DNA from: Klebsiella pneumoniae
GTDB lineage: Bacteria; Myxococcota_A; UBA9042
Direction: 5' to 3'
Length of the DNA: 64,000 nt
Assembly (NCBI GenBank): GCA_945889325.1
Contig: CAMDBH010000007.1
Span: 1 to 64,000 of the forward strand
The position numbers and the translations under genes were made by a program. Below, piece by piece: positions 2,482-54,800 of this stretch (positions within the stretch are counted from its first letter, which is position 1; every line of letters begins with the position of its first letter). A model generated the notes under the pieces. It saw nothing but the letters and a program-made list of their open reading frames with translations. It had not been told where the DNA came from and made no database searches.

Positions 2482-4093
2482 TCACGCGGCGGCGTCCGCG
2501 TCATCGTAGCTCGGATCGGCCGGGTCCATGGGCCAGTCGTCGTCGGGCGACGGCACAAAAGCCTCTTCGCCCGCGAAGTTGGTCGGGTAGGCCCAGCCGA
2601 AATCTTCCCACGGCGGAGCGCGGATCGCCGCGAAACCTTCTGCCGTCAGCGGCAGTTTCAGGTGGGTCAAGATCTTTTGAGCGATGGCGCCGTGCGGAAT
2701 GGTCGCGATGATTTTGCGCCGGCCGCCGCAATGGTCGCACTCAAGGACGTCCCATAAGAACACACGCTTGTGAATTTCGGCCCAGCTCATGCGGTCGGGC
2801 GTTACCCGGTCGGTCGCCGGTTTGGGCGCGTGCCCGCATTCGGTTGCGGGCGCCTCGGTCTTGGGCAACGCGGGCGTGCGCGGACGCGCCGTGTGCAGGA
2901 CGATGGCGCGCCGCCACTGGCAGGCCGGCGCGAAAACCCCGTGGTAATGCAGCAAAGCCCGCTTCGGGGCCGGCACCAATGCCACCATCCGCCGGACAAA
3001 ATCCGGACCCGACAATTTCAGCCACGGAGTGCCATCGCGCCACGGTGAGCGGGGACAGGTATTAACAGTTTCTCCCACTCGATCCGCATCAAGTATTCAG
3101 ATATAAATTCGATGGTTTGCGCGACATGTATCGGGGTGGCGCGGCCGTTTGGTGCCGGATTCGGGCGCCGACAAATGGCATCGATTCGCGAAATTGAATC
3201 GGCGCGCCCCAATTTGGCAATTTGTCGGTCCGTCGGGGCAAATTTGCTGCGACGGACCCGAATGGAGCCAGCGTTTTCCGCACGCAGTTGCGACTTTGGG
3301 GTACCGAAATCGGGAACAATCCGAGTTAACCATTCAATTTATTTTGATAATACACGATCCGCATCAAGTGGGTTTCTTCAAAGGAAATTGTTAATACCTG
3401 TCCCCCCAGGCGCACCGTATTGCCGCCGTCCAGCAGTTCCACGCGATCCGCGGAGATCGCCGGGCGGCATAAATAGCGGACCATCTTCTCCAGGCCGGTG
3501 CGGTTGCACGCACCGACGCGGGTATTTGCATGCAGGCTGAACTGGCACAAGTCCGCGCAGTTGCGTGAGCGCAGGTGGACCACGCCGGGCGCGTTGCCCT
3601 TCTCGCGCCTGGGTTTTTTTTCCGGCCCCCACAACGTTTGGTCGAACAGCGACGCTTTCAAAGCCGCCGCCAGCGCCGGTTGCTCCGCGGCGAATTCATC
3701 GGACGGCGGCTCGTGGCTCTCCTCGTCATAGAAGTCACCCAGCAGATATAGCAGCTTGCGCCGTTGCAGCGGCCGATGGCTACGCGCCACGATCGCCTCC
3801 GGCACTTCAGGGACATCGTCCGGATCCAGTTTGGCCAATTCGTGAAATTGCGGTTTTTGTTCGCCTTGCCGGGTCCAAACGCCATCGCCAAACAGAATGT
3901 GGTGGTGCGGGTCGATTTTGAGCGCGCTGTCAAACCGGTGCAACACCGAAATACCGTCGGCTTTGGCGTCGGCCACTTCGAGTTTGCGCACGTAGAACTT
4001 TGGGATCTCGCTAGTGAAAATGGTCAGCACCGCCGCCCGCAGCGATTGATCCCAGGCCAGGCGATAGCGCAGACGAAACGGATAAGTCAGCAC
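2482..4093 (-). pseudogene. IS91-family transposase, interrupted and truncated
   Basis: N-part LTYPFRLRYRLAWDQSLRAAVL...FDSALKIDPHHHILFGDGV and C-part LVPAPKRALLHYHGVFAP...MSWAEIHKRVFLWDVLECDHCGGRRKIIATI, separated by an inverted-repeat element. Confidence 0.75.
3051..3405. mobile_element. 355-bp non-autonomous inverted-repeat element inserted in the IS91-like gene
   Basis: Perfect 17-bp terminal inverted repeat GGGGACAGGTATTAACA (3051-3067) / TGTTAATACCTGTCCCC (3389-3405); no coding capacity. Confidence 0.75.
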
Positions 4094-4230: not shown

Positions 4231-4764
4231 CTAACGCTTCATCGTAGTCGTAGTCAATCCGCTCAGGCGGCGCAGCGCGGCCCGCTGGTCGCGTTCCGCG
4301 AGGTTCATCGTCATGACCAGTTCTACCAATTGCGCTGTCTGAACCAAGCCGCGTTGCAGCAATTGCGCAACAAGTTTGAGATCTTTATCGCGACCGACAC
4401 GCAACTTCACAGCGGCGATGTCCTCGGCCGCCAGCGCATTTGCGCCCGCCAGGGCACGCGTTCGCTGCTGCCAACCCAGCGCAAAAGTTTGGCTGACGTG
4501 CGGTTGCAGCAAATCGACGTAGTAGCCGAAACGCGCGTCAAATAGGCTGCCTTCGCCCAACGCTTCGTGAACAATAGCAGCCATCTGCGCGTCAGATGGC
4601 ACAATCAAGAGATCGGCATCGCGGGTCAATTCCAGAGGCCCATCGGCATCGCCCAGCGCCGGATCACAGGCCAAGAGCGCTGCGGATCCAGCGACCGTTA
4701 TTTGCTCGCAGGCGGTCAGCGCGCGCACGGCGTCAATGACGTGAATCAGTGCCGGTAGCCGCAC
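4231..4764 (-). CDS. DUF6036/AbiEii-like nucleotidyltransferase
   Basis: Small NTase-like protein: VAGSAALLA...TRDADLLIVPSD...YYVDLLQPHV...LAAEDIAAVKLRVGRDKDLKLVAQLLQRGLV. Confidence 0.55.
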   Translation of the reverse strand: MRLPALIHVIDAVRALTACEQITVAGSAALLACDPALGDADGPLELTRDADLLIVPSDAQMAAIVHEALGEGSLFDARFGYYVDLLQPHVSQTFALGWQQRTRALAGANALAAEDIAAVKLRVGRDKDLKLVAQLLQRGLVQTAQLVELVMTMNLAERDQRAALRRLSGLTTTTMKR

Positions 4765-5093
4765 AAATCCCTCGCTTTGCGCCGCACTTCGCGCGGTAGC
4801 AGGCCCGCAAGCGGCGCGAACTCGCGCAAGCGCTGGCTGTCGCCATCACAGCCGCGCAACACGTGTTGCAGCCGCGCCATGCCTTGCGCCGACACGCGCG
4901 CATCCGCCAACAACACGTCCCAGCAATCGAACCATTTATCAGCGTGCGCACCGAGTTGCCGCCAATGGGTGTTGGTCGCCTGCGCGGTTTGCAACAGTGC
5001 GGGGTCGGCCAGAAGCGCGTCGGCGACAAGTTCTGCGAACGTTGGCATCTTTGACTTTGGTCGCAAGCGCACGACTTCTTGTCCTTTTACCAA
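4746..5093 (-). CDS. Partner gene of the nucleotidyltransferase (uncharacterised)
   Basis: 115-aa ORF whose end overlaps the start of the NTase ORF; two-gene operon layout. Confidence 0.5.
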   Translation of the reverse strand: MVKGQEVVRLRPKSKMPTFAELVADALLADPALLQTAQATNTHWRQLGAHADKWFDCWDVLLADARVSAQGMARLQHVLRGCDGDSQRLREFAPLAGLLPREVRRKARDLCGYRH

Positions 5094-5272
5094 ACGGCGG
5101 TCGATTTGTCCACTGGCGATGGACCCGCTAATCCGTGCCGCCCGCCCACCAAAACAAAATCACAAACTGCGCGGAACGCGCGGGAGCTAAAAATTGCAGA
5201 TTGGGTAAGAATCATCAAACATAACCTTGAATCCGCGCCCATTCATCCACCGCTTCCCCGTGGTTCGCGGCT

Positions 5273-5545
5273 CACGTGCACCTATCGCGGCCCTATCTGA
5301 TCCCCGTCCGCTGCCTGCGTCAGGATCCATTTGCGCGGCGCGCAAATGCAACGGTTAGTGCGGCGGGAGAAAAGCTTGAATTTAATGGTAAAAGCGCGCG
5401 GGGGGTGCAAGGGGCGGCCGCGCGAAGCCGCCCCCTGCTCGCCGATAGGCGAAACCAATCTAAAGATAACAATATGTTACAACCGAGCGCCGTTTGGCGC
5501 AAATCAAGCCTTTGCAAATGGAAGCCGCGCCGCTAGGCGCAACGC
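5273..5545 (+). ncRNA. Candidate structured RNA, repeat copy A (upstream of the AAA/PD-(D/E)XK gene)
   Basis: ~270-nt direct repeat shared with 7200-7465; hairpins CATTTGCGC-GGC-GCGCAAATG (5328-5348), GGGGCGGC...GCCGCCCC (5411-5434), TCGCC-GATA-GGCGA (5439-5452) show compensatory changes relative to copy B. Confidence 0.65.
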
Positions 5546-5610
5546 TTCGCAACCAAGCACATCCGTGCTAATCTCACCGCGTACCGGTGAAACCGAGGGA
5601 GGTGAGCAAA

Positions 5611-6720
5611 ATGCGCTGGTTCAACACCGCCGGGCCGAGTCGACCTGAAGACAATTACATGCTACCGACCATGGACCGGCTGCCGAGCGTGAACCAACTT
5701 ATTGAAAGCAAAGCTTGGTTTGTGCTGCACGCGCCGCGCCAGTCGGGCAAGACCACGGCCATGATAACTTTGGCGGCGGAACTGACGGCGACTGGAAAAT
5801 ACGCTGCAGTCAAAGCCACTTGTGAAAACGGCGCGCCCTTTGGCAAGCAGCCTTTGCTGGCCGTCGCGGCCGTGATGGCGGGCATCAAGCTCAGCGCGCG
5901 AAACACGCTGCCCGAAACGCTGCGGCCACCGCCGCCACCAGAATCGTCTGCGAGCGCGCTCGCGGATTGGTTGGATCAATGGTGCAGTGTGTGCCCTTTT
6001 CCTGTGGTGCTTTTACTGGATGAAATCGATGCGTTGCAGGATGACGCGCTCATTTCCGTGTTGCGCCAGTTGCGGTCCATCTACGACGCCCGGCCGAAGG
6101 CCGCGCCCTCGACGGTCGCCCTGATCGGGCTGCGCGATGTTCGGGATTACAAAGTAGCTTCTGGCCGTTCGCCGCATTTGGGCACCCAGTCGCCGTTCAA
6201 TGTGTCGGTTGCTTCGCTGACTTTGAGGTCTTTTACTCAGGAAGAAGTTGGCCAATTGTATCGCCAACATACCGATGAAACCGGCCAGATTTTTACCGAC
6301 GCGGCGGTAGAACGGGCGTTTTATTACACCCAAGGCCAACCGTGGCTGGTCAACGCGCTGGCGTATGAGTTGGTAACGACCCAGAAAATTAAGGACACCT
6401 TGACGGCGGAGCATGTCGATTATGCCAAGGAACAGTTGATTTTGCAACGCAGAACTCACTTGGACAGCCTGGCGGACAAGCTTAATGAGCCGCGCGTACG
6501 GGCGGTAATCGAGCCGATTTTGACTGGCGAGGAATTGCCTTTTGATTTGCCCCAGCGCGACGTGGATTACTGTACCGATCTCGGCCTCATCGTCAAAAAG
6601 CCGCGGGAGAATCTGATGATCGCAAATCCGATGTACCGCGAAGTGCTGCCACGTGAACTCACGGAGCCCGCGATGCTGCGCATGCGCGTGGGCTCGTCTG
6701 AAAGTCGCTGGGCGCTATAA
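5611..6720 (+). pseudogene. AAA family ATPase, N-terminal part of an AAA-PD-(D/E)XK gene split by in-frame TAA
   Basis: MRWFNTAGPSRPEDNYMLP...WFVLHAPRQSGKTT (Walker A), VVLLLDEIDAL (Walker B); TAA at 6718-6720 is in frame with the next ORF. Confidence 0.75.
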
Positions 6721-6729
6721 GACGGCCGC

Positions 6730-7191
6730 TTGAATCTCAGCGGACTGCTGCTGGAATTTGTCGATTTTTGGCACCAACACGGCGAGTGGATGGTCAAGGG
6801 TCAGGTGTGGCCGGAGGCGGCGCATCAGATTGTTTTGATGGCCTTTTTGCAGCGCATCGTCAACGGCGCCGGTTGGATCGAACGCGAATATGGTTTGGGC
6901 AGCAAGCGGCTGGATTTGTTGATCCGCTGGCATTTGGAGCGCGATAAAAGCGGTGTGCCGATACGCCAAGAGCGTTTTGCGATTGAAGTGAAAGTTTGGA
7001 GACAGGGTCAAGGCGATCCGACGGCGCAGGGCTTGAAACAGCTGGATACTTATTGTGAAAAGCTGGGTTTAAGTACAGGGACGCTGATCGTGTTTGACAC
7101 CCGCGATGCTGCACCGCCGTTTGAAGAGCTTGGGATTTGTAGCGAAACGACGTCGCCCGCGGGCCGCACGGTGCAGGTTTTGCTGGCATAG
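6730..7191 (+). pseudogene. PD-(D/E)XK nuclease-like C-terminal part, same frame as 5611-6720
   Basis: FLQRIVNGAGWIEREYGLGSKRLDLLIRW...RFAIEVKVWRQGQGD...QGLKQLDTYCEKLGLSTGTLIVFD. Confidence 0.7.
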
Positions 7192-7199
7192 CGCGGAGG

Positions 7200-7465
7200 C
7201 ACGTGCACTTATCGCGGGCCCATCTGATCTCTGTCCGCCGCCTGCGACAGAACCCATTGTCGCCGCGCGACAATGCAGCGGTTAGTGCGGCGGGAGAAAA
7301 ATGGGGAAATACGAGCAAAAGCGCGGGGGTGCAGGGGTGCCGCGCTTGGCACCCTTGCCCGCCGTCAGGCGGAACCTGACCAAGATAACAATGTGTTACA
7401 ACCGCGCGCCGTGAGGCACAAATCAAGCCTTTGCAAATGCAAGCCGGGCCACAAGGCGCCCAAAC
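7200..7465 (+). ncRNA. Candidate structured RNA, repeat copy B (downstream of the AAA/PD-(D/E)XK gene)
   Basis: Direct repeat of 5273-5545; hairpins CATTGTCGC-CGC-GCGACAATG (7255-7275), GGGTGCC-gcgctt-GGCACCC (7335-7354), CCGCC-GTCA-GGCGG (7359-7372); invariant AAATCAAGCCTTTGCAAATG. Confidence 0.65.
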
Positions 7466-7587
7466 TGCCGGAGGCAAAAGCCATGCGCAGCATAATGTTA
7501 GCACCGCGACGCAGTCGGGTAATCGACCTGAAGGTCAGCAATGCCAAGCAAAATCCAAATGAAAGCTGGACCGCTCAGGGCAAAACC

Positions 7588-10131
7588 TCAGCGGAGCACC
7601 ACTTCCACGCAGTGATCCTTGTCCAAAAACCGCCGCGAGGTATTGAGCACATCTTCCACGCTAACCGCCAAAAGCGCTTGCAATTCACCGCGATAGGCGT
7701 CGCGGCCGAGGCCGCAGACTTCGTGCATACAAATCGTGCCCGCGCGCGCGTTGCGGCGCTGCAGGCCGATCGCATGACCACCGGCGAGACTTTGTTTTGC
7801 ACGCTCAAGTTCCTGGACTGCCACAGGCTTTTGCAACAGGTGATCGACTTGCTGCCATAGACCGGCGAGGGCCTGCTCGACTTTATCCGGCGAAGTGCCA
7901 ATGTACAAAGCGAAATGCCCTGCATCCAAGCCATCGACGTTCATGGCGCTGACGGTGTAAGCCAACGACTGGCGATCGCGGAGTTCCATAAACAGACGGC
8001 CGGACTGGCCGCCAAGGATCGTCGCAAGCACTTGCAATGCATAGCGTTCTGGCATCTTCAACGTCGCGGCTAAGAAGCCAATCGCGATGTGGGTCTGTTG
8101 CTTTTGCGACGTCGGACGCAGTTCGATCTTGCCGGTTAGGGGTTGCAGTTTAGGCAGTTGTGGCAGGGTATCGGCCACGCGATCGGTGGGTGTCCGCGCC
8201 TCAATGGCACGCGCGAGCGTGTACGGGTCCACGTCGCCCGCCGCCGCGTAAATCAGGCGGCCGGGCGCAAGCGTGCCCCGCAGGTAGCGGTGCAAATCTT
8301 CGCGCTGCAAACCGGCCAAACTCTGCTCATCACCCAACATATCGCGGCCATACGGATGCTGACCGTGCAGCGCGGCAGACATCGCGCGCAAAGCCACCCG
8401 TGCGGGCGAATCCGCTTGGTGGCGAATATCTTCCAGTTGCGAATTGCGCTCTTGCGTCAAATCTGCCGTCGGCAAATCGGCGTCAAACAGACAATCGAAC
8501 AGCAAATCCAACACAGCATCGCTGGTTTTCTTGAGCGTGACCGCCTGCACACCCAGGGAATGTTTGCCGCTCAGGCCGCCGACTCCAGCGGCAAGGCTTT
8601 CAATTTGTTGAGCAATATCGTCAGCCGACTTGCGCGCCGTGCCGCGCGTCAGCATGGCCGCCAGCAAGTGGCCGCGGCCGCTGCTCAAAGCGTCTTCGTC
8701 GCGCACGCCGCCCAAGGTCGCCACGCGTAGACCGATGACCGGCACGCTCGCATCGGGCTGGACCAAAAGCACATCGCCGCTGGGCAATACGACTCGCTCA
8801 ATGCCATCTAGGACATCGGGTTCATGCAGCGCCAAATGCACAGCGACCGGCTTGGCGAGCACTTGCTGCGTTTCAGCCAAAAGTGTTTCAGCTGTCGGCA
8901 CATCGGTAAAATCTTGGCCGGGCAGGAGCACAATTTGCACGCTGTCGGCGCGCAGGTACTGTTTGGCTACGCGCAACACATCGGCCAGCGTCACCGCTGC
9001 AATACGCTGATTATAAATGCGATCCCAGTGAGGATCGCCGGTTGCCGCGCTGAAATAACCGGCCGCATGGGCCAAGCCCTGCACACTTTCCAGCTTGTAT
9101 GTCGCGTCGGCCAGCATATTGCTGATGGCCTTGTCCAATTCCGCTTGACGAATGCCATCTTCACAGACTTGACGCACCACTTCCAAGCTGGCCAATCGCG
9201 CCGGCGCCAAGCGTTCGGCGCTGGTGTGTAGCGTCAGGGTAAACAGGCCTTCGTGCATCGGGGTGTAGGCAGAAGTCCCGATATCATTAACCAAATGCCC
9301 TTCGCGTTGGACGATCTTGACCAAGCGCGAGGAATCGCCCTGGCCCAAAGCCAACGCCAACACGTCCAGCGTCGGCACGTCCGGATGCTCCAACGGCGGA
9401 ATCGGCCACGCGTAAATGATGCGCGTTTCAGAAAAAGTCGCGGCCAAGACGTCGGCGCGCGGCTGCGAGGTCGGTTTGAGCGCGCGCGGCTTGGGCAACG
9501 CTGGCGTTGTCGGCAAATCGATAAAGGCTTGGGCAATCGCGGCTTGCACTTCAGCCGCATTGAAATCGCCCACCGCAATGACCGCGGCGTTGGGCGCGAC
9601 ATAATGCTTTTTGTAAAACGCCCGCATTTTTTCGGACGTCATTTCGCGCACACTTTCAGCCGTTCCGAGCACCGGCAAGGCGTACGGATGACCGGGATAG
9701 GCCATTTGAAACAAGCGTTTGTACGCGACGTTGCTCGGGCTGTCCTCGCTTCGTTTGATTTCTTCGACGACGACTTCGATTTCGCGGCGCAACTCTTCGG
9801 CATCAAATAAGGAATGACAAACGATGTCGGCCAAGACATCCAGACCGGCGCGCCAACTGTGCGCGGGCATCACGACGTGAAAACACGTTTGATCGCTGGA
9901 AGTCCAAGCGTTGATTTGGCCGCCGGCGGCTTCGACGTTCCCTGCAATTTCACCAACTTTTCGCGTAGGCGTGCCCTTGAACAGCATGTGTTCGTGCAAG
10001 TGCGCCAGACCGCGTTCGCCGTCGATTTCGTCAAAACCGCCTGAACGAATCCAGACTTGGAAAGCTGCGACGGGGCAGCCGTGGGACGCTTGAATGTACG
10101 TCGTCAGCCCGGAGGCCAAAGTGCTGAGCAT
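7588..10131 (-). CDS. M16 family zinc metallopeptidase (tandem domains)
   Basis: HLHEHMLFKGTPTR zinc motif and ~100 aa later REIEVVVEEIKRSEDSP; 847 aa. Confidence 0.92.
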   Translation of the reverse strand: MLSTLASGLTTYIQASHGCPVAAFQVWIRSGGFDEIDGERGLAHLHEHMLFKGTPTRKVGEIAGNVEAAGGQINAWTSSDQTCFHVVMPAHSWRAGLDVLADIVCHSLFDAEELRREIEVVVEEIKRSEDSPSNVAYKRLFQMAYPGHPYALPVLGTAESVREMTSEKMRAFYKKHYVAPNAAVIAVGDFNAAEVQAAIAQAFIDLPTTPALPKPRALKPTSQPRADVLAATFSETRIIYAWPIPPLEHPDVPTLDVLALALGQGDSSRLVKIVQREGHLVNDIGTSAYTPMHEGLFTLTLHTSAERLAPARLASLEVVRQVCEDGIRQAELDKAISNMLADATYKLESVQGLAHAAGYFSAATGDPHWDRIYNQRIAAVTLADVLRVAKQYLRADSVQIVLLPGQDFTDVPTAETLLAETQQVLAKPVAVHLALHEPDVLDGIERVVLPSGDVLLVQPDASVPVIGLRVATLGGVRDEDALSSGRGHLLAAMLTRGTARKSADDIAQQIESLAAGVGGLSGKHSLGVQAVTLKKTSDAVLDLLFDCLFDADLPTADLTQERNSQLEDIRHQADSPARVALRAMSAALHGQHPYGRDMLGDEQSLAGLQREDLHRYLRGTLAPGRLIYAAAGDVDPYTLARAIEARTPTDRVADTLPQLPKLQPLTGKIELRPTSQKQQTHIAIGFLAATLKMPERYALQVLATILGGQSGRLFMELRDRQSLAYTVSAMNVDGLDAGHFALYIGTSPDKVEQALAGLWQQVDHLLQKPVAVQELERAKQSLAGGHAIGLQRRNARAGTICMHEVCGLGRDAYRGELQALLAVSVEDVLNTSRRFLDKDHCVEVVLR

Positions 10132-36869: not shown

Positions 36870-36884
36870 ACAATTCACGGACAT

Positions 36885-36966
36885 GGCCGGCGGCACACGG
36901 CGTCATCGCTACCGTTGCTACCTCTCGGTCCTGGCGGGGTTTACAACGCTGCCGTTGCCGCCGGCC
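36885..36966 (-). ncRNA. ffs: Bacterial small SRP RNA (4.5S type)
   Basis: Minus strand GGCCGGCGGCA...CCCCGCCAGGACCGAGAGGTAGCAACGGTAG...TGCCGCCGGCC; 11-bp closing helix and CAGG-ACC-GAGA-GGT-AGCA domain IV-like motif; ORF-free, next to dnaX. Confidence 0.85.
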
Positions 36967-37013
36967 TTGCCCACGAATTATCAATACTTTCATAGGTTAT
37001 CTTGCCGAGCAGT

Positions 37014-37104
37014 TGGCGGAGAGAACGGGATTCGAACCCGTGGTACCCTTTTGGAGTACACCCGCTTTCCAGGCGAGTACCATAAACCACTCGGACATCT
37101 CTCC
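37014..37104 (-). tRNA. tRNA-Ser(GGA)
   Basis: Class II tRNA with long variable arm; anticodon loop TGGAAA; CCA encoded. Confidence 0.93.
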
Positions 37105-37193
37105 GTGATCATTGCCTTTATGCGTTTTGAGCGCCAACAAGCACGCCGAAACGGTTTCTACGCAACAAACTGTCTAAAATCAAACGGGGACTT

Positions 37194-37281
37194 TGGCGGA
37201 GAGCGAGGGATTCGAACCCCCGGTACCTTGCAGTACACCTGATTTCGAGTCAGGCTCCTTCAGCCACTCGGACAGCTCTCC
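37194..37281 (-). tRNA. tRNA-Ser(CGA)
   Basis: Class II tRNA; anticodon stem-loop CCTGA-CTCGAAA-TCAGG; CCA encoded. Confidence 0.93.
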
Positions 37282-37380
37282 ATCGGCCCGTCTTACTGCG
37301 TTTCCGCGATTTTGCAGCGCGCAGCCGCAGATCTTCGGGGCCAAGAGTTTAGCTTGGCGCGGCGGCAACTGCAAGCCGGC

Positions 37381-37866
37381 TCACTGGTCGACGAGAGAAA
37401 CCAGCCGTTCGCCCTGGCGCAAAGACTGAAAAAAACCCGACAAAAGGGCGCTGGCCTGTTCGCGGCGCACCCCTTCGGTCGTGATCAACCTGTGGTTCAG
37501 ACGCTCGTCCTGACCGAGCTGATACAGCGAAACCGCAGCACCGGCCTTAGGATCGCGGCAAGCGAACACCAAACGGCCGACGCGGGCGTTGATCGCCGCG
37601 CCCATGCACATCGGGCACGGTTCAAGCGTGACGTACAAAGTGCAATCATTGAGCCGCCAAGAACCCAGCGTGCGGCCGGCTTCGGCCAACGCCAAAATTT
37701 CCGCGTGCGCGATCGGATTCTGATCCTGTTCGCGGCGGTTGGAGGTGATGGCGACAATTTCGTTTTCGTGAACAACGACGGCGCCGATCGGCACATCGCC
37801 AGCGTGACCGGCTTCTACCGCGGCGCGCAGAGCAACGTCCATGAAATCATGGTCCTGACGCTGCAT
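37381..37866 (-). CDS. tadA: tRNA adenosine(34) deaminase
   Basis: IAHAEILALAEAGRTLGSWRLNDCTLYVTLEPCPMCMGAAINARVGRLVFACRDPKAGA. Confidence 0.95.
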   Translation of the reverse strand: MQRQDHDFMDVALRAAVEAGHAGDVPIGAVVVHENEIVAITSNRREQDQNPIAHAEILALAEAGRTLGSWRLNDCTLYVTLEPCPMCMGAAINARVGRLVFACRDPKAGAAVSLYQLGQDERLNHRLITTEGVRREQASALLSGFFQSLRQGERLVSLVDQ

Positions 37867-37993
37867 TGGTGCGGCTCCATCGGCGACTCCCGGTCAATTG
37901 GGGCGAGAAAACTACTGGGTCAAATTAGCAGGAGAAAAACGAACGGCAGCGCGGTAGATCTGGCTGCGATTTCTAGAAACATGAACTATTTAG

Positions 37994-38067
<74 letters not shown>

Positions 38068-38266
38068 GATGCGGACAGCCTGCGCTGTAAGCTCGGAATA
38101 ATACACAGACAAATTACAATCTCACCGGCGAACGCCGCAAAGTCGAAAAAATTTCGCCCGAACCGAGCTACCGCTCTGGCAGCTGGGTGAGCTTGCGGGC
38201 GCACGCGCCTCGGGGGAGGGCGGGGGCAACGGCCCTGGCGGCGAGCCCCCTAAAAACGAAACTGGG

Positions 38267-38355
<89 letters not shown>

Positions 38356-38423
38356 GTTGTTATTTGGCCTTTGTTTTTAGCCGGAGTCACATCAAAATAT
38401 CAAGGCGACTTTTGCAGCTAAGT

Positions 38424-38511
38424 TGGCGGAAGAGGAGGGATTCGAACCCCCGGAGGCTCTCACCTCGGCGGTTTTCAAGACCGCTGCCATCAACCACTCG
38501 GCCACTCTTCC
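38424..38511 (-). tRNA. tRNA-Ser(TGA)
   Basis: Class II tRNA; anticodon stem-loop GCGGT-CTTGAAA-ACCGC; CCA encoded. Confidence 0.93.
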
Positions 38512-42876: not shown

Positions 42877-45800
42877 TCAATACATACCGATCATGCGCAC
42901 AAAGAACCCGCCCAAATCCGTAGTTTGGCGGATATCGCCCGCCGGGGTTTCAACAAAGCGCGTGAAATTATAACCCAAACCGACGCGCATCGCCTTGGCA
43001 AACGTATAGGCCGTTTCAAATAGCACGCCTTGCTGCGCGTCATGGGTCAAAAGCGTGGTCAGCATGCGATATTCGGCAAAGATATCCCAGTTATCCATCG
43101 CGTGCCAACCCAAACGGTTGATCCACAACACCGTGTCACTGGTCGTAGCGGGCGTGTCGACGCCGGTGCCGACAAGCGTATCTGTCACGCGCCGCCACGC
43201 CACTTTCTCCGACAATTGCAAGCGATACGGCAATTCCGCAATTGGCTCAATACTGAAAATATCTTTGATGGCGCGGTCTTGCACGCCGGTGTTGAGATTG
43301 CTCGGCCGCATCTCAATCAAATGGCTGTATTTGCCCACGACGTTGAGCCAGTTGGTCCGCAACGGCCGGAACGCTGCCCCCGCGGTCGCCTCCAACGCTT
43401 CGGCTTCCAATTGGTCGGTCGTTTGATTTTGCGTGCGCATGTAGTTGGCGCGACCAAAAAGCGTTAGCTCTTTGGTTATACCGGCTTGGCCGTTGTTCAG
43501 GCTCAGCACCTGCAATTTGCGCAAGCCGCCTTGGTTTGGATCGCCTTGGTCCATCCGCACTTCCTGGCGGGTGGTGAATTTCAGCCACTCATTGCGCAGC
43601 CATTCGCCGCCCAGCGACAGCGCATCGCGCGAGCCGGGACCCGCCGCGCCGCTAAAGGTCTGCTGCCGTTCGTAGCCAGCATCGATATTGACACCCTTCA
43701 TAATTTCAAAGCGTTTGCCCACACCCATGACGGCGCGGTTCATCGCACCGGTGTTCAGCGCATCGATTTGGTATTCACCGTAAGCGCGGCTCAGTTTGTC
43801 CGCACCGTAGCGCGATTCTGCGCCGACAACTGTCGCGCTCGCCAAACGACCGGTCTGGTAGGTGTCCTCAAGTCGCTGTTGCACATAGGCATTGGTGTCT
43901 TTGTCCAATTCGGTGCGGATACCGGCGGCTGTGGCGTTTTGCCCGCCCCAACCCAATTTTTCCGTCAAGGTCAGCGCCAGCGTCTTGTTCAGCTTATAAT
44001 CCAAGCCGACCGTGCTCATCAAATGATCCGCACTGCTGCGGAATTGCTGTGGATCGCCGAACAAAATCGCCTGTTGATCCGCGCGCAAAGTCAGATGCTC
44101 GGTCGCGCGGTAAGCCGCACCGGCACCGACGGTGGTGTTCTTGTGGCCCAAGCCCGCGCTATCCATGCCATACGCATAAGTCGCACCGCCGAGCAGCGTC
44201 CAACGCGCGTCCAACTTCTGGCTGTCCTGCAAGGCGATAGTCTGCTGATTGTAGGCAGAAAAGCTGCCAGAACTGGCCGTGGCCGGATTCAAACTGGTGT
44301 TGGTCGGCGACGTGCCCCACAAGCCGCCCAAGCCGGGGCCGGTGAATTGGCTGACGGGTCCATCGGACAAAATGCCATCATAGCGCAAATTCAAAGTGTT
44401 GCCGGTGTGCACGTTAAGCAGCGCATCCAAACCGATCTTCTGTTGCCCCTGCTGCGCCACGCTGCCGCCCGACTGAAAACCCGCCTGCATCCACTGGTAA
44501 TGCGCGCGGATGCGCCCGGGCGACGGCGCATCGCTGCTCGTTACGCCTTCGGGCAGACCGACCACATCGCGCAGATCGATTTCCGTTGCAATCTTCACAG
44601 CCTGACCGCTAACCGGTGCGCCATTGCTATAGATGCTGGTGGCGTAATTCGGCGTGCCAAAACTCAGGCCGCCGTCGTCGGATACGCTCAGCATCGTGTC
44701 GCGCGATTGACTGTAAGCATATTCAACAGTTGCCTGACTGCTTTTGGCAATTTTGAACTTGACGTCGGCGCCGGCCAATTGGTATTTCGGCGCGCCGTCG
44801 CGGCCTTCTTGCACGTAAGCCGCGCCCACGCTGATCTTGCCGCCGAGCATTTTTTCCTGCAATTGCACGCCAAAACTCGCCTGATCGGTGGAGACCACGC
44901 CGCGCGCTTCGTACACAGCTTCGACAAAGATCGGATGACCGGTCCACAAATTCGCTTGCCCCGGCAGGCCGTTCTGACTCAGCAACAAGCCCGCATCGGC
45001 GGCGCTCGACACCGGCGACTTGAACACGATGCGGCCTTGGAACGGGTCAACCGTGTAATCCACGTTGCGCGTTTGCGGCAGCCGCGCCAATTCCAAACCG
45101 CTGATGCGATCGCGAATGATCAAGTTGACTTGTTCCGAACCGTCGACCAAATCGCGCGCGCTCAAATAGTACAGTGAACCGCCAGTGCCGCGCAGCACAT
45201 CTGTGCGTTTGACAATGGCTTTGTCGGGGCTGGCGACAAAACCTTGGACGCGGGTTTCAAATTCTTTGCCAAATGCCCGCGTCGCGTCCAGTTGCACGCC
45301 GTACAAAGCGCGGCTATAGCGAAGCAATTCAATGCCTTGAATGTTGGCTTTCAAATTGCCTAACAAGAACTTGGTGCGGTCGGCTTCGACCAAAATGTAC
45401 ATTTTGCCGCGGCTTTGCGCGTCCTGAACCAACCCGCCGGAGTCACCATACACTGGATAAAACCGCGTTGGATCAAGGAGATTGGTGGCAAAGTCCGTCA
45501 GATTGGCATCCTTGGCCGTATCCAGATGGGCCGTAAATTGCAGATCTTTTAGCCCAAGGAACTCGCCCGCGATGCGCCCCTTGGCGTACACAGCGCCGCG
45601 GCCGAACAATTGCACTTTGCCGGTTTGATAGCCGCCAAATTGCTCGGTTTCTTTTAGATGCGCGTTGATTTGGCTGACCGACGTGTCGGCAATCGCCAAC
45701 AGGAACATCGAGCGCTCTTTGACCGCAAGGGCGCGTTCAATCACGGCTTTGTTGCCGGCCGCGTCGGTTGCCGTCAGTTCCAATTTCGATTTGCCATTGG

Positions 45801-48800
45801 GCAAAGTCAACAATGTGTAGAAGCTGCCGTCGCTCGCCACCGGTATTTCCTGACCCTGAATCGTCAATTTGTTGCCCGGCAGCGTGCGCCCGCGCACCGG
45901 CAACTGGGTCGCGCCGAGTTCAAGCCCGGCCTTGGGCAAATAGACTTGTAATTCCGCAGCTTGCACGGCAGCATTGTCGTCTGCGCTAGCAGTCGCTGTT
46001 GGCGCTAACGCGGCGGGCTTGCCGGCATCGGCAGGTTTGGTCGCGGCGGGCAACTCGGCGGCGGCTTCAAAGGCTTTGTTTTGCGCAGCGACTGCGTCCA
46101 ATACGTCTGCGCCAAAATCGCTCCAATCGCCCGTCGATCCCTGCGGCGACTTCGGTTGGGCTTCACCGGAAGGTGGATTGGCAAAAACCCGCTGCCAAAC
46201 CGAGGCTGTACCGTCGGCTTTTTGCAACACAACCCGCGTCGCTTCACCCTGACGCACATCGACTTTGGCGGGCAGTTTGTCCGACGCGCCGGCAATTGAC
46301 TTGTCATCGATCCACAGACCGGCGGGTGTGTCAAAACGCTTTGTCGATCCGCCGCTTAGCGAACCGGTGTTGAGCGCGCGGTAGCGCACTTCAATCCGAT
46401 GCGGCCCTAGCACCTCGCGGTTGCCCTTGAAATCGGCGACTTGGTTGCCTACACCGAATACCAGCAGCCGGTCCGCGGGCGCGCCAAAGCCCAACAGCGC
46501 CGCGCGCACCTGGTCGGCCGCAAGCTCCGTGCGCTTTTGCGCGTCGCCCGGGCCGCCGTCGTGGATGGTCACGACCGCAATGTCTTTTTGCGCCTTGACG
46601 GCTACTGCGGTTTTTTGTAGACCTTCCAAAGTATTATCCGTCGGTGCGCCGTTGGCATCAAACAGAGTCGCCCGCGTATGGCGATCCGGATCGCCCAACG
46701 GCAGCAAGCCCAGACCTCCGGCCGCAAGCTCAACGGCCACGGGCACCGTGCGCCAACCGGCGAGATGATCGCCATCTTGCACCAGCACTTCCAACGCCAA
46801 ACCGTATTTGCCCGGCGTCAGATCGCGCGCACCGCTCGGATTCCATTTGAATGTCGGGGGAATGTATTTGCCGATTTCCGTGTAAGCCCGCGTTTTGCCA
46901 GTCGCGTCGACCAGCACAATCGCCGCCGACTGCGTTTCCGGCGGCAAACCGCCGGTGGTCAAAATCACGCTGCCCAAGATCTTGCCGTCTGACAGCGGAA
47001 TCGCCATCGTTGGGCCACTTAACAGGACGTTTTTGAACTGCGGTTGTAGCGCCACGCCGCCGATCGTCAGACCCGTTTCGAGCGTGCCTTTGAGAGCGAC
47101 GGCCACGCGCCCGGGCAATTTCGGCGCTGGCGGAGCCTTCGGCAATTCAACGACTTTAGGCGCTTCAACCGCTTTGGGCGGCGCAACCACTTTAGGCGCT
47201 TCGACAACCTTTGGCGCTTCGACAACCTTTGGCGCTTCAACAACTTTGGCTGGTTCAACAACTTTGGGTGGCGCCACCACTTTGGGCGCTTCGCCGACCT
47301 TCGGCACCTCGACTACCTTTGGCGCTTCAACCACTTTGGGCGCTTCTAGTGCCTTGGGCGGTTCTGGCACTGGCTCATTCTTTGGCGGGGCCAAAATCGA
47401 GGCGTTGGCGCCGCGCGGCAGCGTCATGTACTCGTCGCGGCCGCTGCCATCGGGGGCGCGCAAGCTCAGCAGCAGGCGCCCGTCGTCCGGTCGCGCCACG
47501 CGCGCACTCGTGCGCCCAACGGCGTCCAAAAGAAAACCCACGCCGTTGAGCAACAACCGCGGCGGCCGTTTGGGCGAAGTGAAGGCTTTCTCATGAATAT
47601 CCTTTACCTCGTGGCGAATTTCAAACGCCATCGGCGCCGACCACGCGCGCGCGCCGTAGGCGGTTTCACCGCGGACGCGCAATTGGTAGCGCTTGCCTTC
47701 GGGCAAAGTGCGCAGCGCAGATTTGCCGTCTGAAGTCGGCTTGAGCTGTGCTTTTGCCGGTATTTCACCGGTTTGCGCTTGTTCAAGTACGATCGGACCC
47801 AAATGACCGCCTTCGCCGAGCTCGCGCACTTCCAGCGCCCAGCGATCGAAGCTGCCCGCCTTGTCGATCCACACGTTCAGCTGGGTGTCAGCGGTCAGCG
47901 CCACCGAACTCACATCGGTTGCCAACTGAGTCGGCCTCCCTTCGACCAGCGCCAACTGCGCACGAACAAAGCGCGGCGCCAGCTTCTTGCCGTCAATCGA
48001 TAGATCCAGCTTGGGCGCGTCGGCGTCGATTTGCACCACGCCCGGGCCGGGCGGCTGCGGCGTTTCGGTCACATGCGGCGCGCGTTCGATGCGCGTCGGA
48101 CCCGTCGTTTCCAAGGCGCATTTGACGCCAAAATGGAGGCCAAGATTGGAACCCGGCGTGAAATACAGCACTTGCTTGTCGTCGTCGACGACTGTTGATC
48201 CCGGGGCCAAGGTGTCAACATCGAGTTTGAACAGGTGATTGCCCGGCGTCAGGTTGATAAAATGCAAACGGCCGTACATATCCGAGGTGGCGAAATAGCC
48301 AGAATCGACGTAAATACGCGCACCTGGCAGGCCATCTTCGCCTTCTTGCTGCACGCCATCGCCATTGGCGTCGCAAAATACTTTGCCCAAGACCAGACCG
48401 CGGTCGAACAGCGGATCGTCTTTGACCAGCAATTGCGCGGTACCACGCGGGCTCAACGCCCCGCCGCCCAAATCGAACAACTGTGCCAGCACGTCGAGCA
48501 ACGCGCCGACCTTGGCCATTGGCGTCACAATCACTTGGGCGCGGAACGTCAACTCGCCGCCGGCCGGCAGATCCAAGCCTACGGGTTTATTGGTTGTTGG
48601 TGAAATCCGCTTGACCGACAGCACCGGCGCCTGCAGGGGCGCCAACGGCAGCTTGTTGTCCGCCCCCCCCGGTTTGCTTCGCATCATCAGCTGGGCGGTA
48701 CCGGGCACCACATTGATACCGCTGGGTAAAAGTGTGCGCAGCTCCGTGCCGCCTTGACCAGTCAACATATCTGCAGCCAGTGCGGCCGTGGAATGGTTCT

Positions 48801-51800
48801 GCACCAGCACGGTGGCATACAGCAGTTCACCGATTTGTGCTTGAGATTTGGACAGTTGTACCGTGATATGGATGGCGTCCGCCAGCGAGTCAACCGGCAG
48901 GTGATTGTGCCGCGGCGACGCCGCGCTATCGCCTGCGCCGGAATCGCCCTTGCCGGTGGTCGCACCGCCTTGCAGGCTAAAACGCGTGAGATAACGCGGC
49001 AATGCCTTGCCGATAACCGGCAATGCTTCGGGCACGACAAAACCAAAAGCGTCCAAAAGCGCCAATTCCGGCTCTGGCCCGCGCAGCAAGGGCGGGAACG
49101 CATAACCGTTTGTGGTTGCAGCCACTTCGATGCGATAGGCCCGACCTTTGGCGGGGCTGAATTCATAGGCGCCGCTGGCGTCTGTGCGCTGTCCCTGTTG
49201 GCCCACCAGCAGCGCGTCGTCGGGCACATTTTGGTTGGGTGCGATCGGATCGGCTGCGTCATAGCGCAGGAATACATGGACATTGGCCACGGGCGTGCCC
49301 GTGCGCGCGTCGTACACACGCCCCGTAGGCTTGAGCGCGACGTCCAATTTGCCGCCGACAACGGCGGCCGATTGCGCGGGATCAAACGGCGCATCGACAA
49401 ACACCGCGCCATTGGCCGAAAGAATGCGCAACCGGCGCAGCGAACCGGCGACATGGGCAATGGAATAATGGCCTTTGTCGTCCGCGATTGCCGTCAACGC
49501 CGGACCTTCAACGCCGACCGGGGGCAAAATGGCGACTTGGAAACCGGCAAAAGTCAAGTCTTTGTCGGCGTCAAAAACGCCATTTTCAGCGCCGACATCT
49601 TCAAATAGTGTCCCAGAAACAACACCTTCACCGATCATGGCCCCGATGGTGACGCAAGCCGCTTTGGCCGAAGCGCCGACATTGTCGACATCGGCGCGCG
49701 CGTTGTTGCAGATGACGGCGCCGTCAGTCAGGTTATCCATCAACTTCACGCGCAGTTGCACCGTTTGCGTTTCACCGGGCTGGATGTCGATCTTGCCAAT
49801 CGTCAGCGTGGTCTGGCCATTTTGTCCCGGCAACAAATTGATGCTGGCATTGGGCGGTGCCAGCAAATCGTTTGGATTTCCGCTACCTGGACCCAGCGCA
49901 GGCGGAATGACCAAGCCTTTAGGCAAATTATCCGTCACAACGCTGCCTAAAGCCGCCAGACCTCCCAGATTTTGCACCACAAGCGTATAGCGCAGCCAAT
50001 CGCCGGGCTTGACCGAACCGCCATTTTCATCCTGCACCGTTTTCACAACCTGCAACAAGCGCGCGGGGATGCCGACTTGCGTCACCGTGGGCTGATTGCC
50101 GTTGCCGTCGTCGCCGTCTTGATCGCTCGGCTCATCCGACATGCCTTTGGCTTTGACAATCGCTTGGTTGCTCACAGTCGGCCCGACGGCGATCTGCACA
50201 CGCAGCGCGATCTTTTTGCTTTCACCGGGTCCAATCGAACCCAGTTGCAAATGCACGCTGTTGTCTGCGGCAACAAATGTCGCCGCATCGGTATCGGCCG
50301 CATCGGTCATCAGCTTGCCGTCAACCTCGGTAGAACTGCCGATATATTTGGCATTTTTTGGCACCGCATCGTCGACGATCACATTTTCCGCCGTGCCAAT
50401 ACCGGTGTTCTTCACCGCAAGCGTGTAGAGAATTTCCTCGCCCACATCGGCTTGCCCGTTGTGGTTGGCGTCGACGAGTTGCGCAGTTTTTTGAAACGAT
50501 CGCAGCGAAGCCCCTTTGCCCACAGGCAATTCTGCCGGACCAATCTGCGTGGGCCCCACGTTGTCCGCTTGAGCGGTCGCGGTATTGCTGACAATTGTGC
50601 CTTCTGGCACCCCGGCGCGCAGCCGCGTTTGGAACGTCACGATCGCCGCTTGATCCGTTCCCGCCGCAAGTACGCCATTTGGCTGGCCATTTGAAGAAAC
50701 AGCGACACCGCTGAGCAACGGCGAACTGCCACCGACATCGGCCACCTTGTTGCCGTTCAGCGTGGTCGATCCCGGCACGTAGTCCATACCAGCTGGAATC
50801 GTGTCAAAAACCCTCGTGCCGGTCAGGCTTTGCGCCGATGTGGCGATGAGCGTCATTCGCCACGTCACCGTGTCACCGGTTTGCAGCGCCGCGCCGTTGT
50901 CGTCCTTAACCGTTTTAGTCGAAGCAGCAAGCGCACTTGCGACGCGAACGGTGACGATCGTCGGATCGTTCAGCGCAGGCGTGCTGGGATCGTCCGAAGG
51001 CGTTTTGTCCGTCAGTCCGCTGGCTTGGACCTGTGCCTGGTTGGCGATTTTTGTGCCGTCGCCCACCGCGGCCTTGACGCGAACGTCCAATTGCAGCGTC
51101 AACGGTTTGCCCGGCATAATCGTCTGCAATCCCGGGGTGCTGGTGCTGTTCCAGCTGACCGTACCGGCGCCACCGCTGCCATTTTGCCCAACCGCGACCA
51201 AGTCGACGCCAGCGTCCAAAACATCCTGCACGACCACATCTTGCGCCGCTGCATTGCCAGAAACACCGATCTCTATTTGATAACGCAGCGTATCGAGCGG
51301 ATGGACCTTGCCGCCCGCGGCAAAACCGTTGAGGTCGATCACCGTCTTTTTGATCGCCAGTTGCGGCACCGAAACAATCGGCATTTGCACGACATTGCCG
51401 TCATAGGCCAGATTCGTTTCGCCTTCGCGGGCAGTTGCGCTCGCGCTGGCGTTGCTGCCGTTTTTCGCCGTCGCCTTGACCCGCAGGCCCACGGTCAGGC
51501 CCACGCTGGCGCCCGCGGGGATGTTGGCCAAAGCGGCGTTGTCCTTGACAGTCCATTTGACGATTTTGGCCGTGCTGTCGTACTGGCCGCCGCCCAAAGT
51601 CACGATGTCAAACGCATTGGTGTCGATCGGCGCCAAAACTGTGACATTGCTGGCATTTTCCGGGCTATTGTCCGTCACAACAACCTGCATCGCCACGCTG
51701 TCACCGGGCTGAATCGGCGATTTGGCCGGCGCTTCTGGCGTCAAGGTCACCGCAACCGCCAACGTCGGATAGCTAATTTTGGCCGTGACCGTGTTGGAAG

Positions 51801-54800
51801 TCGCCGGTTCGCTATTTTGCGCCTTGGCCTGCGCGGTATTGACAATGGCTGAGCCATTGAACGCATTTGCCGCGACTTTGCCTTGCACATTGACGGTGAC
51901 CGCCTGGCCGACCGCCAGAGTCGGAAGGGTCCAAGTCGCGATATTGCCTGCCACCTTGCCCGAATTGTCGGTGGTCAGGCCCGTCAAACCGGCCTGCACT
52001 GCGTCGGTGATTTGCAACGCGGTCGCCGGTGCGTTGCCGACGTTGCTGGCCGTGACGGCAAAACGCAGGCCGTCGCCCGGGAACAGGTGGTTGCCCGTCA
52101 AATCTTCAAAAGTTTTAATCAGTTTGATAATCGGCCGCAGCGCAATGATCAAAGTCGGCCCCTTGAGCGCCACGGGCAACGGCAAGGCGGCAACTGCCAA
52201 ACTTGCTGTAATTGGCAGGACTTCGCCGTCCAGTCCATCGGCCGCGACTGTCGCTTTGAGCACCACCGTGACTGAACCGCCAGCGGCAAGCAGCGGCAGC
52301 GTCCACTGCGCTGTTTGGCCATTGGCCACGCCGCCCGGCGTTACAATCTGAATTTTACTGAGCTTTGTCGGCAGGGGCACGCTGACAACCACATTGTCCG
52401 CCGCCGCCTTGCCGGTATTTTTCACGGTCACTTCGACGCGAACCACGTGCCCCGGCGCGACTTGGTTGACTTTGCCCAGCCAGCCCGTTTCATCTTCTGC
52501 AACCACCGTCGATGTATCGAGTTTTGGCTTGCTCACCACCGTGAGCACCACCGACAGCGGCGCGATCGTCGGCACTTGGCCGATGACCGTGATCTTGACG
52601 CCATCGGCGACATTGGCAGCGATTTTGGCTTTGAAAGTAACAGTTTGATCGCCAAGCGGGCTCAAAAGCAGCGAGGGCAAAGTCCAGGTCACCTTATCGG
52701 CCAAATTCTGTCCGCCATCCAGCGGCAAAATGTCCGACAGAGTTCCCGCCTGCAACAGCGCTTGTAGCAATAGGTTTTGCGCGATCGCGTCGCCCGTGTT
52801 GCGCACGGTCAGCTTGATAAAGACTTCATCGCCCGGCTCGATCGCGCCACCGTTCACGTCGACATAGGTCATCGAACTCGTGGAGAAATTTGCCTTGGCG
52901 CTGACCGCAATCTGCGTTGCCTCTTTGATCGCTGTGGCCAGGTTGGCGTCGGACAGCACCGGCACGCCAAAACCGGTCGCGCTTATCTGGGCTTGTTCCA
53001 AAATCACCGCGCCATCGATCTGGGGCTTGATCAGAGCTACCTTGAACTTCAGAGTCTTAGCGTCCGTCGGCGCCATGTTGCCCAACTTCCACGTCAGCAC
53101 GCCACCGGCCAACACCGCGCCGTCGCTAAACGGCGGCTGGGCGATCAGGCGCGCATCGATGGGCAGGTTGATGGTGACGTTCTTGCCCGTGCCGTCGCCG
53201 TCGTTTTGCAGCGTCAGCGTGAATTCAAAAAGGTCGCCGGGCTGCGCCAGACCGCCATTCAAATCCACTGCGGTCAAGCTGGCTTTGCTGAAATCCACGC
53301 TTGAAGCGATGCTCACAATCGTCGCATCTCCGATGGCAATCGTCGTTGGATCGTCGGATTTGGTAGGCGTGGCGTTGCCTTCAAAAATCACTTGCGCTTG
53401 GTTGCTTATCGGCACGCCGTTGTCCAGACCAACCGCGATCTTGGCTTCAAAGCGGACGACTAATTCGTCATTGATACCAGTACTTAGCACGGCAAGCGGC
53501 CAGACGATCTTCTTTTGCGCCGCGTCAAAAACACCGCCGTCGAGCGGCACAATGTTGGTCAGTTCGGGCGGCACTGAATCGGTCACCGCGACATTTTTGG
53601 CCACCGCGCTGCCGGTATTCTTGACCTTTAGGCTGTAACGCAAGCCAACATTTGGCTTAATCGTCGCTTGGTTGATCTGCTTGCCGGTGGCAACGTCAAA
53701 AACATCCTTGGTCAAAACCAGTTTCACGGCGCTGTCGACGTCAAAACAAGTCGGCTCACCGCCTTGCTTGGGCGCCACACCCGGCGGACTCGTTTGCGAC
53801 GGCGTCGGATTTTCACTTGCGGTAATCAGCGCTTGGTTGCAAACCTTGCTGCCCTTGTCCAATGGTTTTTTGAGAGATCCCGACACGGTCAACGCCTTGG
53901 TTGCGCCCGCGGCCATGGCACCCACATTCCATGTCACCTTGCCTGTGGCGTCGATTGCGCCGCCGGGGGCCTGCACATTTTCGATTTCCTTGGGCAATTG
54001 GTCGCTCACCACAATGCCGGTGCCAGGCGCATTGCCGCTGTTGACGATCGTCAGCGTGTAACTGACTTGCCCACCCGCCGTAATCACCGGTGCGGACACA
54101 GCTTTGAGCGACAACCCAAAATCCGGCAGATTTTGCACGGAAAAACTGGTGGTGTTGGTCACGCCCGAACCTGGCGTCTCGCTAAAGGTGAACTTTGCTT
54201 GGTTGTTGACGATTGTCCCGCTCGGGGTCGCCTTGTCGATCACCGCGCTCAGCACCAATTCAGCCGGCGTCTCGCCAGGTGCCACACCGGCAACCGCGTT
54301 CCAAGTCACCGTGCGGTTCACTGCATTGAAAGTGCCATTGATAACAATGACATTGGTCAGCGCCAGCGCCAGCACATCGGTAACCACCACGTTGGAGGCC
54401 GGACCGTTGCCGGTGTTCTTCAGCTGAATTCGGTATTCAATCTGATCGCCACCTTGAACAATGCCGCCGTTCAGGTCGACGTATTTCTTGGTCGTACCGC
54501 TCATGTCCGGCGCAGAGAGCACGGAGAAAACCGTCGGGTCGGTCTTGCCCGGCTTGGCCGGATCATCGCTCAGCGCCGGTGCCGCCAAACCGTCGCCGGT
54601 CAGGGTCAACTGGTTGGAAACGGTCTTGCCCTGCGCCACGCTCGCCGCCAATTTACCTTGAAAAGCAAGGCTTTGCAGCGGATCTCCCTTGAGCAAGTTG
54701 GCAAATTTCCACGTAATCGTCTGGCCGTTTATCACGCCGCCGTTGCTGGCACTTTCCAGCGCGATCAGCGGATCGACCGTCGTTGTGAGCACGCCATTGG

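Follow-up and report, generated by a model that had tools for sequence, protein, structure and literature searches.

The two repeats that bracket an ATPase-nuclease gene in the window (the whole stretch of 64,000 nucleotides analyzed here) are members of a family with about 50 loci in the same genome. We consider it likely that this family is a lineage-specific, structured, non-autonomous dispersed intergenic repeat, similar to BIME, YPAL, or MITE elements, that inserts at gene 3' ends. This explanation is favored by the number of copies, their covariation, the orientation rule, composites that run from stop codon to stop codon, the mosaic make-up of the family, and its near-absence in relatives. 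The orientation of insertion, at a gene 3' end or just beside it, would be fixed, and the structured strand of such an element would face, antisense, the 3' end of the neighboring gene.

Repeat family and the two window copies

A MITE-like family is expected to be present in a genome as numerous dispersed non-coding copies, and approximately 50 were found here. A DNA search gave 40 matches in the own genome and a covariance model gave 55, which correspond to about 50 loci because some matches are extra tail units. Identity of repeat copies to copy 1, the left-hand copy in the window, reaches 91%. The family is a mosaic of one 3' core, alternative 5' modules, and a mini-hairpin tail, and element units are 150-400 nt long. 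The 5' modules upstream of the shared core fall into four or more kinds (types A, B, C, and D), and some are in tandem. Types A and D are related; in both, CC and GCGGTTA flank a variable hairpin. In module B, an outer stem with G-C/C-G swaps and an apical stem that is hypervariable yet complementary enclose a purine-rich internal loop that is invariant. In the tails, A-rich linkers connect mini-hairpins; a single tail has 44 matches in the genome, mostly beside cores. Two 5'-truncated cores at contig ends (L098 and L099) have in common a foreign sequence upstream, which contains a TGCTATAAT box and may be another repeat fused at the identical point.

The sequence-only reading had described direct repeats of about 270 nt at 5273-5545 and 7200-7465 on either side of the ATPase gene, and both are present there. 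Self-alignment of the window gives 79% identity between 5273-5402 and 7200-7329 and 88% between 5463-5540 and 7382-7459, and overall identity of the two copies is 78%. The start region of copy 2 was placed correctly, but its proposed extent is too short, as a third copy, on contig C2, is homologous to it over 7192-7587. Both window copies are type A and lie on the + strand.

The 5' module of copy 1 (5273-5388) contains the hairpin CATTTGCGC-GGC-GCGCAAATG with flanking conserved CC/GCGGTTA elements. It is 91% identical to the C2 copy and aligns to A/D module set A4. The 3' core, which is common to the whole family and is described by the R1 model, occupies 5389-5542 (R1 match of 151.1 bits). 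It includes stem S1 of a pseudoknot (5396-5423), in which GCGCGG (5396-5401) pairs with CCGCGC (5418-5423), and stem S2 (5407-5438), in which 5407-5417 pairs with 5428-5438. These are followed by the hairpin TCGCC-GATA-GGCGA (5439-5452), with CG/UA covariation at its base, and the hairpin GCGCC-GTTT-GGCGC (5487-5500), with a near-invariant stem. A conserved unpaired linker (5501-5526; family consensus AAAACAAnCCTTTGCAAATGGAAGCC) leads to the hairpin GCGCC-GCTA-GGCGC (5527-5540), unit 1 of the mini-hairpin tail, which is short in copy 1. Two strings that had been called conserved from the window pair, TAACA-AT(A/G)-TGTTA and the unpaired CAAATCAAGCCTTTGCAAATG, are features of the closest (type A) copies, the latter as an exact string; the consensus of the family at this place is AAAACAAnCCTTTGCAAATGG.

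Copy 2 has its 5' module at 7192-7315, with the hairpin CATTGTCGC-CGC-GCGACAATG and homology to the C2 copy from 7192 onward. Its core is at 7316-7461 (R1 match of 131.1 bits), and its tail of small hairpins and linkers at 7462-7587 is common to the C2 copy and other family tails. Copy 2 thus fills 7192-7587 completely, from the stop codon of the ATPase gene (7189-7191) to the convergent stop codon (7588-7590) of an M16 peptidase gene (7588-10131, - strand; PF00675/PF05193), the 3' end of which adjoins it. Upstream of copy 1 is a gene pair at 4231-5093 (- strand), and 4498-5279 is 86.5% identical to the pair beside the C2 type A copy. Copy 1 and its gene pair together are 86-91% identical to the C2 unit, which is beside a recO-like gene and has no ATPase gene (this name, like the rpsB- and lspA-like names below, is our presumptive reading of translations, not a search result). 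Because copy 2 runs from stop to stop and copy 1 with its gene pair resembles an ATPase-free unit, these alignments indicate that the bracket is two separate elements, not a pair of ends. Copy 2 would be an insertion between convergent stop codons, and copy 1 would belong to a separately duplicated gene-pair-plus-element unit.

To the left of the gene pair is an IS91-like transposase in two pieces (2482-3078 and 3326-4093, - strand). The second piece matches PF04986 (Y2_Tnp; 39.7 bits) and the first is below the cut-off; together they are probably a decayed element.

Covariation, pseudoknot, and strand

Compensated changes in both arms of hairpins had been noticed between the two window copies. 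They are found in the sequence and are upheld in a large alignment of copies. With 22 copies aligned, double changes affect all nine model pairs of helix S2, 87% of cells in stem S1 are paired, and the covariation score of 0.238 was reached by none of 500 shuffles. An alignment of 58 matches has 155 double-change cells and a covariation score of 0.264, compared to 0.017-0.080 with slid partners; this alignment was fitted to the structure, so it is biased towards it. Approximately 10 quite different S2 arms occur, and all are still complementary. S1 (GCGCGG/CCGCGC) crosses S2, likely forming an H-type pseudoknot. The covariance model and genome search that had been proposed as a check returned further copies in the own genome with covariation far above shuffles and slides, and the claim of a conserved secondary structure is borne out by genuine covariation across about 50 same-genome copies. 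Arm-by-arm correction at the DNA level could also yield compensated changes, but without a preference for G-U.

The suggested unit had also been called unrecognized, and Rfam 15 assigned no family to the repeat copies. In the window, no relevant Rfam family scored over its gathering cut-off, and every match from a permissive search of eight copies (E<=5) was unrelated and did not exceed the gathering score. HDV-like ribozymes and type III antitoxin RNAs were considered by eye and rejected for wrong topology or a missing toxin gene.

Strand preference was evaluated from mismatches and folding energy. On the + strand, G-U and A-C mismatches number 21:12 over all helices found (p 0.08) and 17:2 without four ill-matched helices whose folds look wrong or truncated, an exclusion chosen post hoc with the data already seen. 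Folding energy is ambiguous: the core leans to the + strand, and the upstream 130 nt favor the - strand by energy and the + strand by z-score. The G-U excess and the invariant purine-rich internal loop of module B favor RNA from the + strand, which is more likely but not proven.

These features raise the alternative that the copies are multicopy small-RNA genes, with the + strand transcribed outward from the 5' module and a pseudoknot core acting in a regulatory RNA or in one that is antisense to the neighboring gene's 3' end. Covariation, the excess of G-U over A-C, the invariant loop of module B, and the A-rich linkers on the + strand are all consistent with this. However, no promoter-like site was found within the element in the two regions scanned, the 5' modules differ and do not describe one conserved RNA, and the repeat is nearly absent within the same bacterial family, so we regard small-RNA genes as unlikely. 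The same invariant internal loops count against a dispersed repeat, because they exceed what a passive repeat needs. The family allows a direct question, whether repeats are kept as RNA parts or are merely DNA parasites.

Position at gene 3' ends

Orientation of the repeat relative to its neighbors is nearly fixed. With genes called as mechanical open reading frames, the downstream gene in 46 of 50 copies at first count is on the opposite strand and has its 3' end towards the element. On recheck, the better interpretation of L096 is a + strand lspA-like gene, and L092 borders masked sequence, which gives about 45 of 49. Exceptions are copy 1, which precedes the ATPase gene, and copies that precede an rpsB-like, an lspA-like, and one other gene. 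The tail usually extends right to the stop codon of the adjoining gene. Contigs C79, C28, and C9 have back-to-back pairs of cores, each forming a composite that occupies the whole space between convergent stop codons. A structured strand that is antisense to the adjacent gene is also a point of likeness to integron attC sites.

Such a position would suit a 3'-UTR or terminator element that, read on the minus strand, would form the end of the mRNA from the adjacent gene. The fixed location at gene 3' ends is in line with that role, as are the T runs that follow stem S1, module B, and module C on the minus strand; nevertheless, the role seems distinctly improbable. Terminator-like sites number 7 compared to 3.8 in shuffled sequence in the window (a modest excess) and 3 compared to 2.7 on L059, the balance of G-U and A-C points to the other strand, and relatives do without the element. 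As a dispersed repeat, the family may still affect the 3' ends of neighboring transcripts.

Against insertion as a dispersed repeat stand the copies that break the orientation rule and the lack of a transposase tied to the family; no target duplication was seen in the window family, and no empty site was shown for it. The family would be mobilized in trans by some transposase. A RAYT-type Y1 transposase was rejected as the mobilizer, because the single Y1 gene (PF01797) in the genome has different palindromes. This gene (L109:1430-2110, contig C28) is flanked by inverted AGTCCCTTCGGGACT palindromes, and the two are likely a REP/RAYT pair of their own.

ATPase-nuclease gene, relatives, and known repeats

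The sequence-only reading named an AAA ATPase/PD-(D/E)XK gene between the repeats. Both parts are present on the + strand, but they are split by an in-frame stop. The AAA open reading frame (5611-6720) has its likely start at ATG 5611 after GGGAGGTG, ends with TAA at 6718-6720, and matches AAA_35 (35 bits) and AAA_22 (31 bits), both over cut-off. The PD-(D/E)XK part continues in the same frame after the TAA (6721-7191) and keeps its D...ExK...QxDxY residues; compared with 13 homologues (14 sequences), D62, E86, K88, and Q104 are invariant. Pfam family PDDEXK_9 matched one homologue only, below cut-off. In full-length relatives the two parts are fused in one open reading frame, mostly of 520-610 aa, and because the in-frame TAA separates them here, the window gene is probably interrupted. 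PADLOC had no model match for the window ATPase or nuclease part, NCBIfam had no convincing model for the ATPase-nuclease, and no solved structure matched it in sequence.

Pairing of the repeat RNA with the ATPase-nuclease had suggested a mobile or defense unit, in which the repeat would be the recognition RNA or the end on which the ATPase acts. This proposal for the most part did not hold up: the ATPase gene is single-copy in the genome and is present at one of about 50 repeat loci, and no defense model was matched. The idea that the ATPase gene travels with the repeat was rejected on account of this single copy and by 19 ATPase loci of relatives, none of which has an R1 match. Guide RNAs of HEARO/IscB and TnpB are structured, have many copies, and occur beside a nuclease gene in a mobile context. 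By comparison, the repeat here has no Rfam match, the nuclease is PD-(D/E)XK and not RuvC/HNH, and only one repeat locus has the gene, whereas an RNA-guided nuclease would have the RNA beside its gene in most copies.

The window family is lineage-specific and nearly absent from relatives. A search of 55 relatives gave only two weak matches; both look like real partial homologues, and they have the same orientation at gene 3' ends. The core was also searched against viral contigs, plasmids, and GTDB genomes and gave one GTDB match, in an Opitutales MAG, which was judged to be chance because the model does not match it.

Relatives do have structured repeats of their own. In G010, a query of about 420 nt made from its own repeat had 48 matches, and three genomes of a sister genus (G014, G021, and G017) each have about 40 or more copies of a repeat of about 140 nt that folds well (z -3.5) and has TIR-like GGG...CCC ends. 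The G014 repeat (L180:242-380 and other loci) has precise ends, 3-bp target duplications (TAA/TTA/CTA), and head-to-tail copies; more than 40 copies are 94-99% identical, which suggests that it was probably active recently. TAA, TTA, and CTA are stop codons on either strand, which would explain the gene-end position of this repeat and would be a simple reason for the build-up of such elements at gene ends. The sister-genus repeat and the window family are both structured and dispersed, mostly at gene 3' ends and in some cases at ATPase genes; no sequence homology was shown between them, and the clean 3-bp target duplications are a sister-genus feature. By analogy with this repeat, the window family is probably mobile.

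The ATPase family is multicopy in relatives, and a dispersed structured repeat is at the 3' end of 5 of 16 ATPase genes compared to 3 of 70 other long open reading frames from the same loci (Fisher p 0.005), in loci that were chosen for the ATPase and with ATPase copies that are not independent of each other. Direct repeat copies also bracket the ATPase gene in G010 (L165) and G014 (L180). Such neighborhoods would fit one ATPase-repeat unit. Many ATPase copies in relatives have no repeat, repeats favor gene ends anyway, and the window gene is interrupted; together with the copy numbers given above, these make a single unit highly improbable. There is also little chance that the fused AAA/PD-(D/E)XK proteins of this bacterial family mobilize lineage-specific structured RNA/DNA repeats or are directed to them, with the two co-evolving, the fold as recognition element, and the protein acting at gene ends. 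We treat repeat adjacency of the ATPase-nuclease genes in relatives as a weaker lead.

Foldable small mobile repeats with intergenic positions and target duplications are a well-described class (PMC2229807). YPAL elements have internal inverted repeats, are not A+T-rich, and target areas of dyad symmetry, and MITE RNA can affect neighboring mRNA (PMC2229807). Like RU/MITE elements, especially YPAL/RU-2 and ERIC/RU-1, the window family is non-coding, intergenic, dispersed, and foldable. It differs in its larger size, modular make-up, covarying pseudoknot, and alternative 5' modules, and in that its mobility is inferred. REP, BIME, and REPIN elements with RAYTs share with it mosaics of extragenic palindromes, back-to-back pairs, and lineage-specific expansion; the window family has units of 150-400 nt with conserved long-range pairing, and the Y1 gene of this genome carries other palindromes. 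REPINs are covered in PMC3116915 and TnpAREP in PMC8266576. The family appears to be undescribed, though of a known kind: a bacterial dispersed repeat, locked to gene 3' ends, in which compensated changes preserve a pseudoknot and alternative modules across many copies.

Two further features of the window, both on the - strand, are a small SRP RNA in a cluster with five tRNA genes (36877-38511) and a single open reading frame of 5011 aa (42877-57912).
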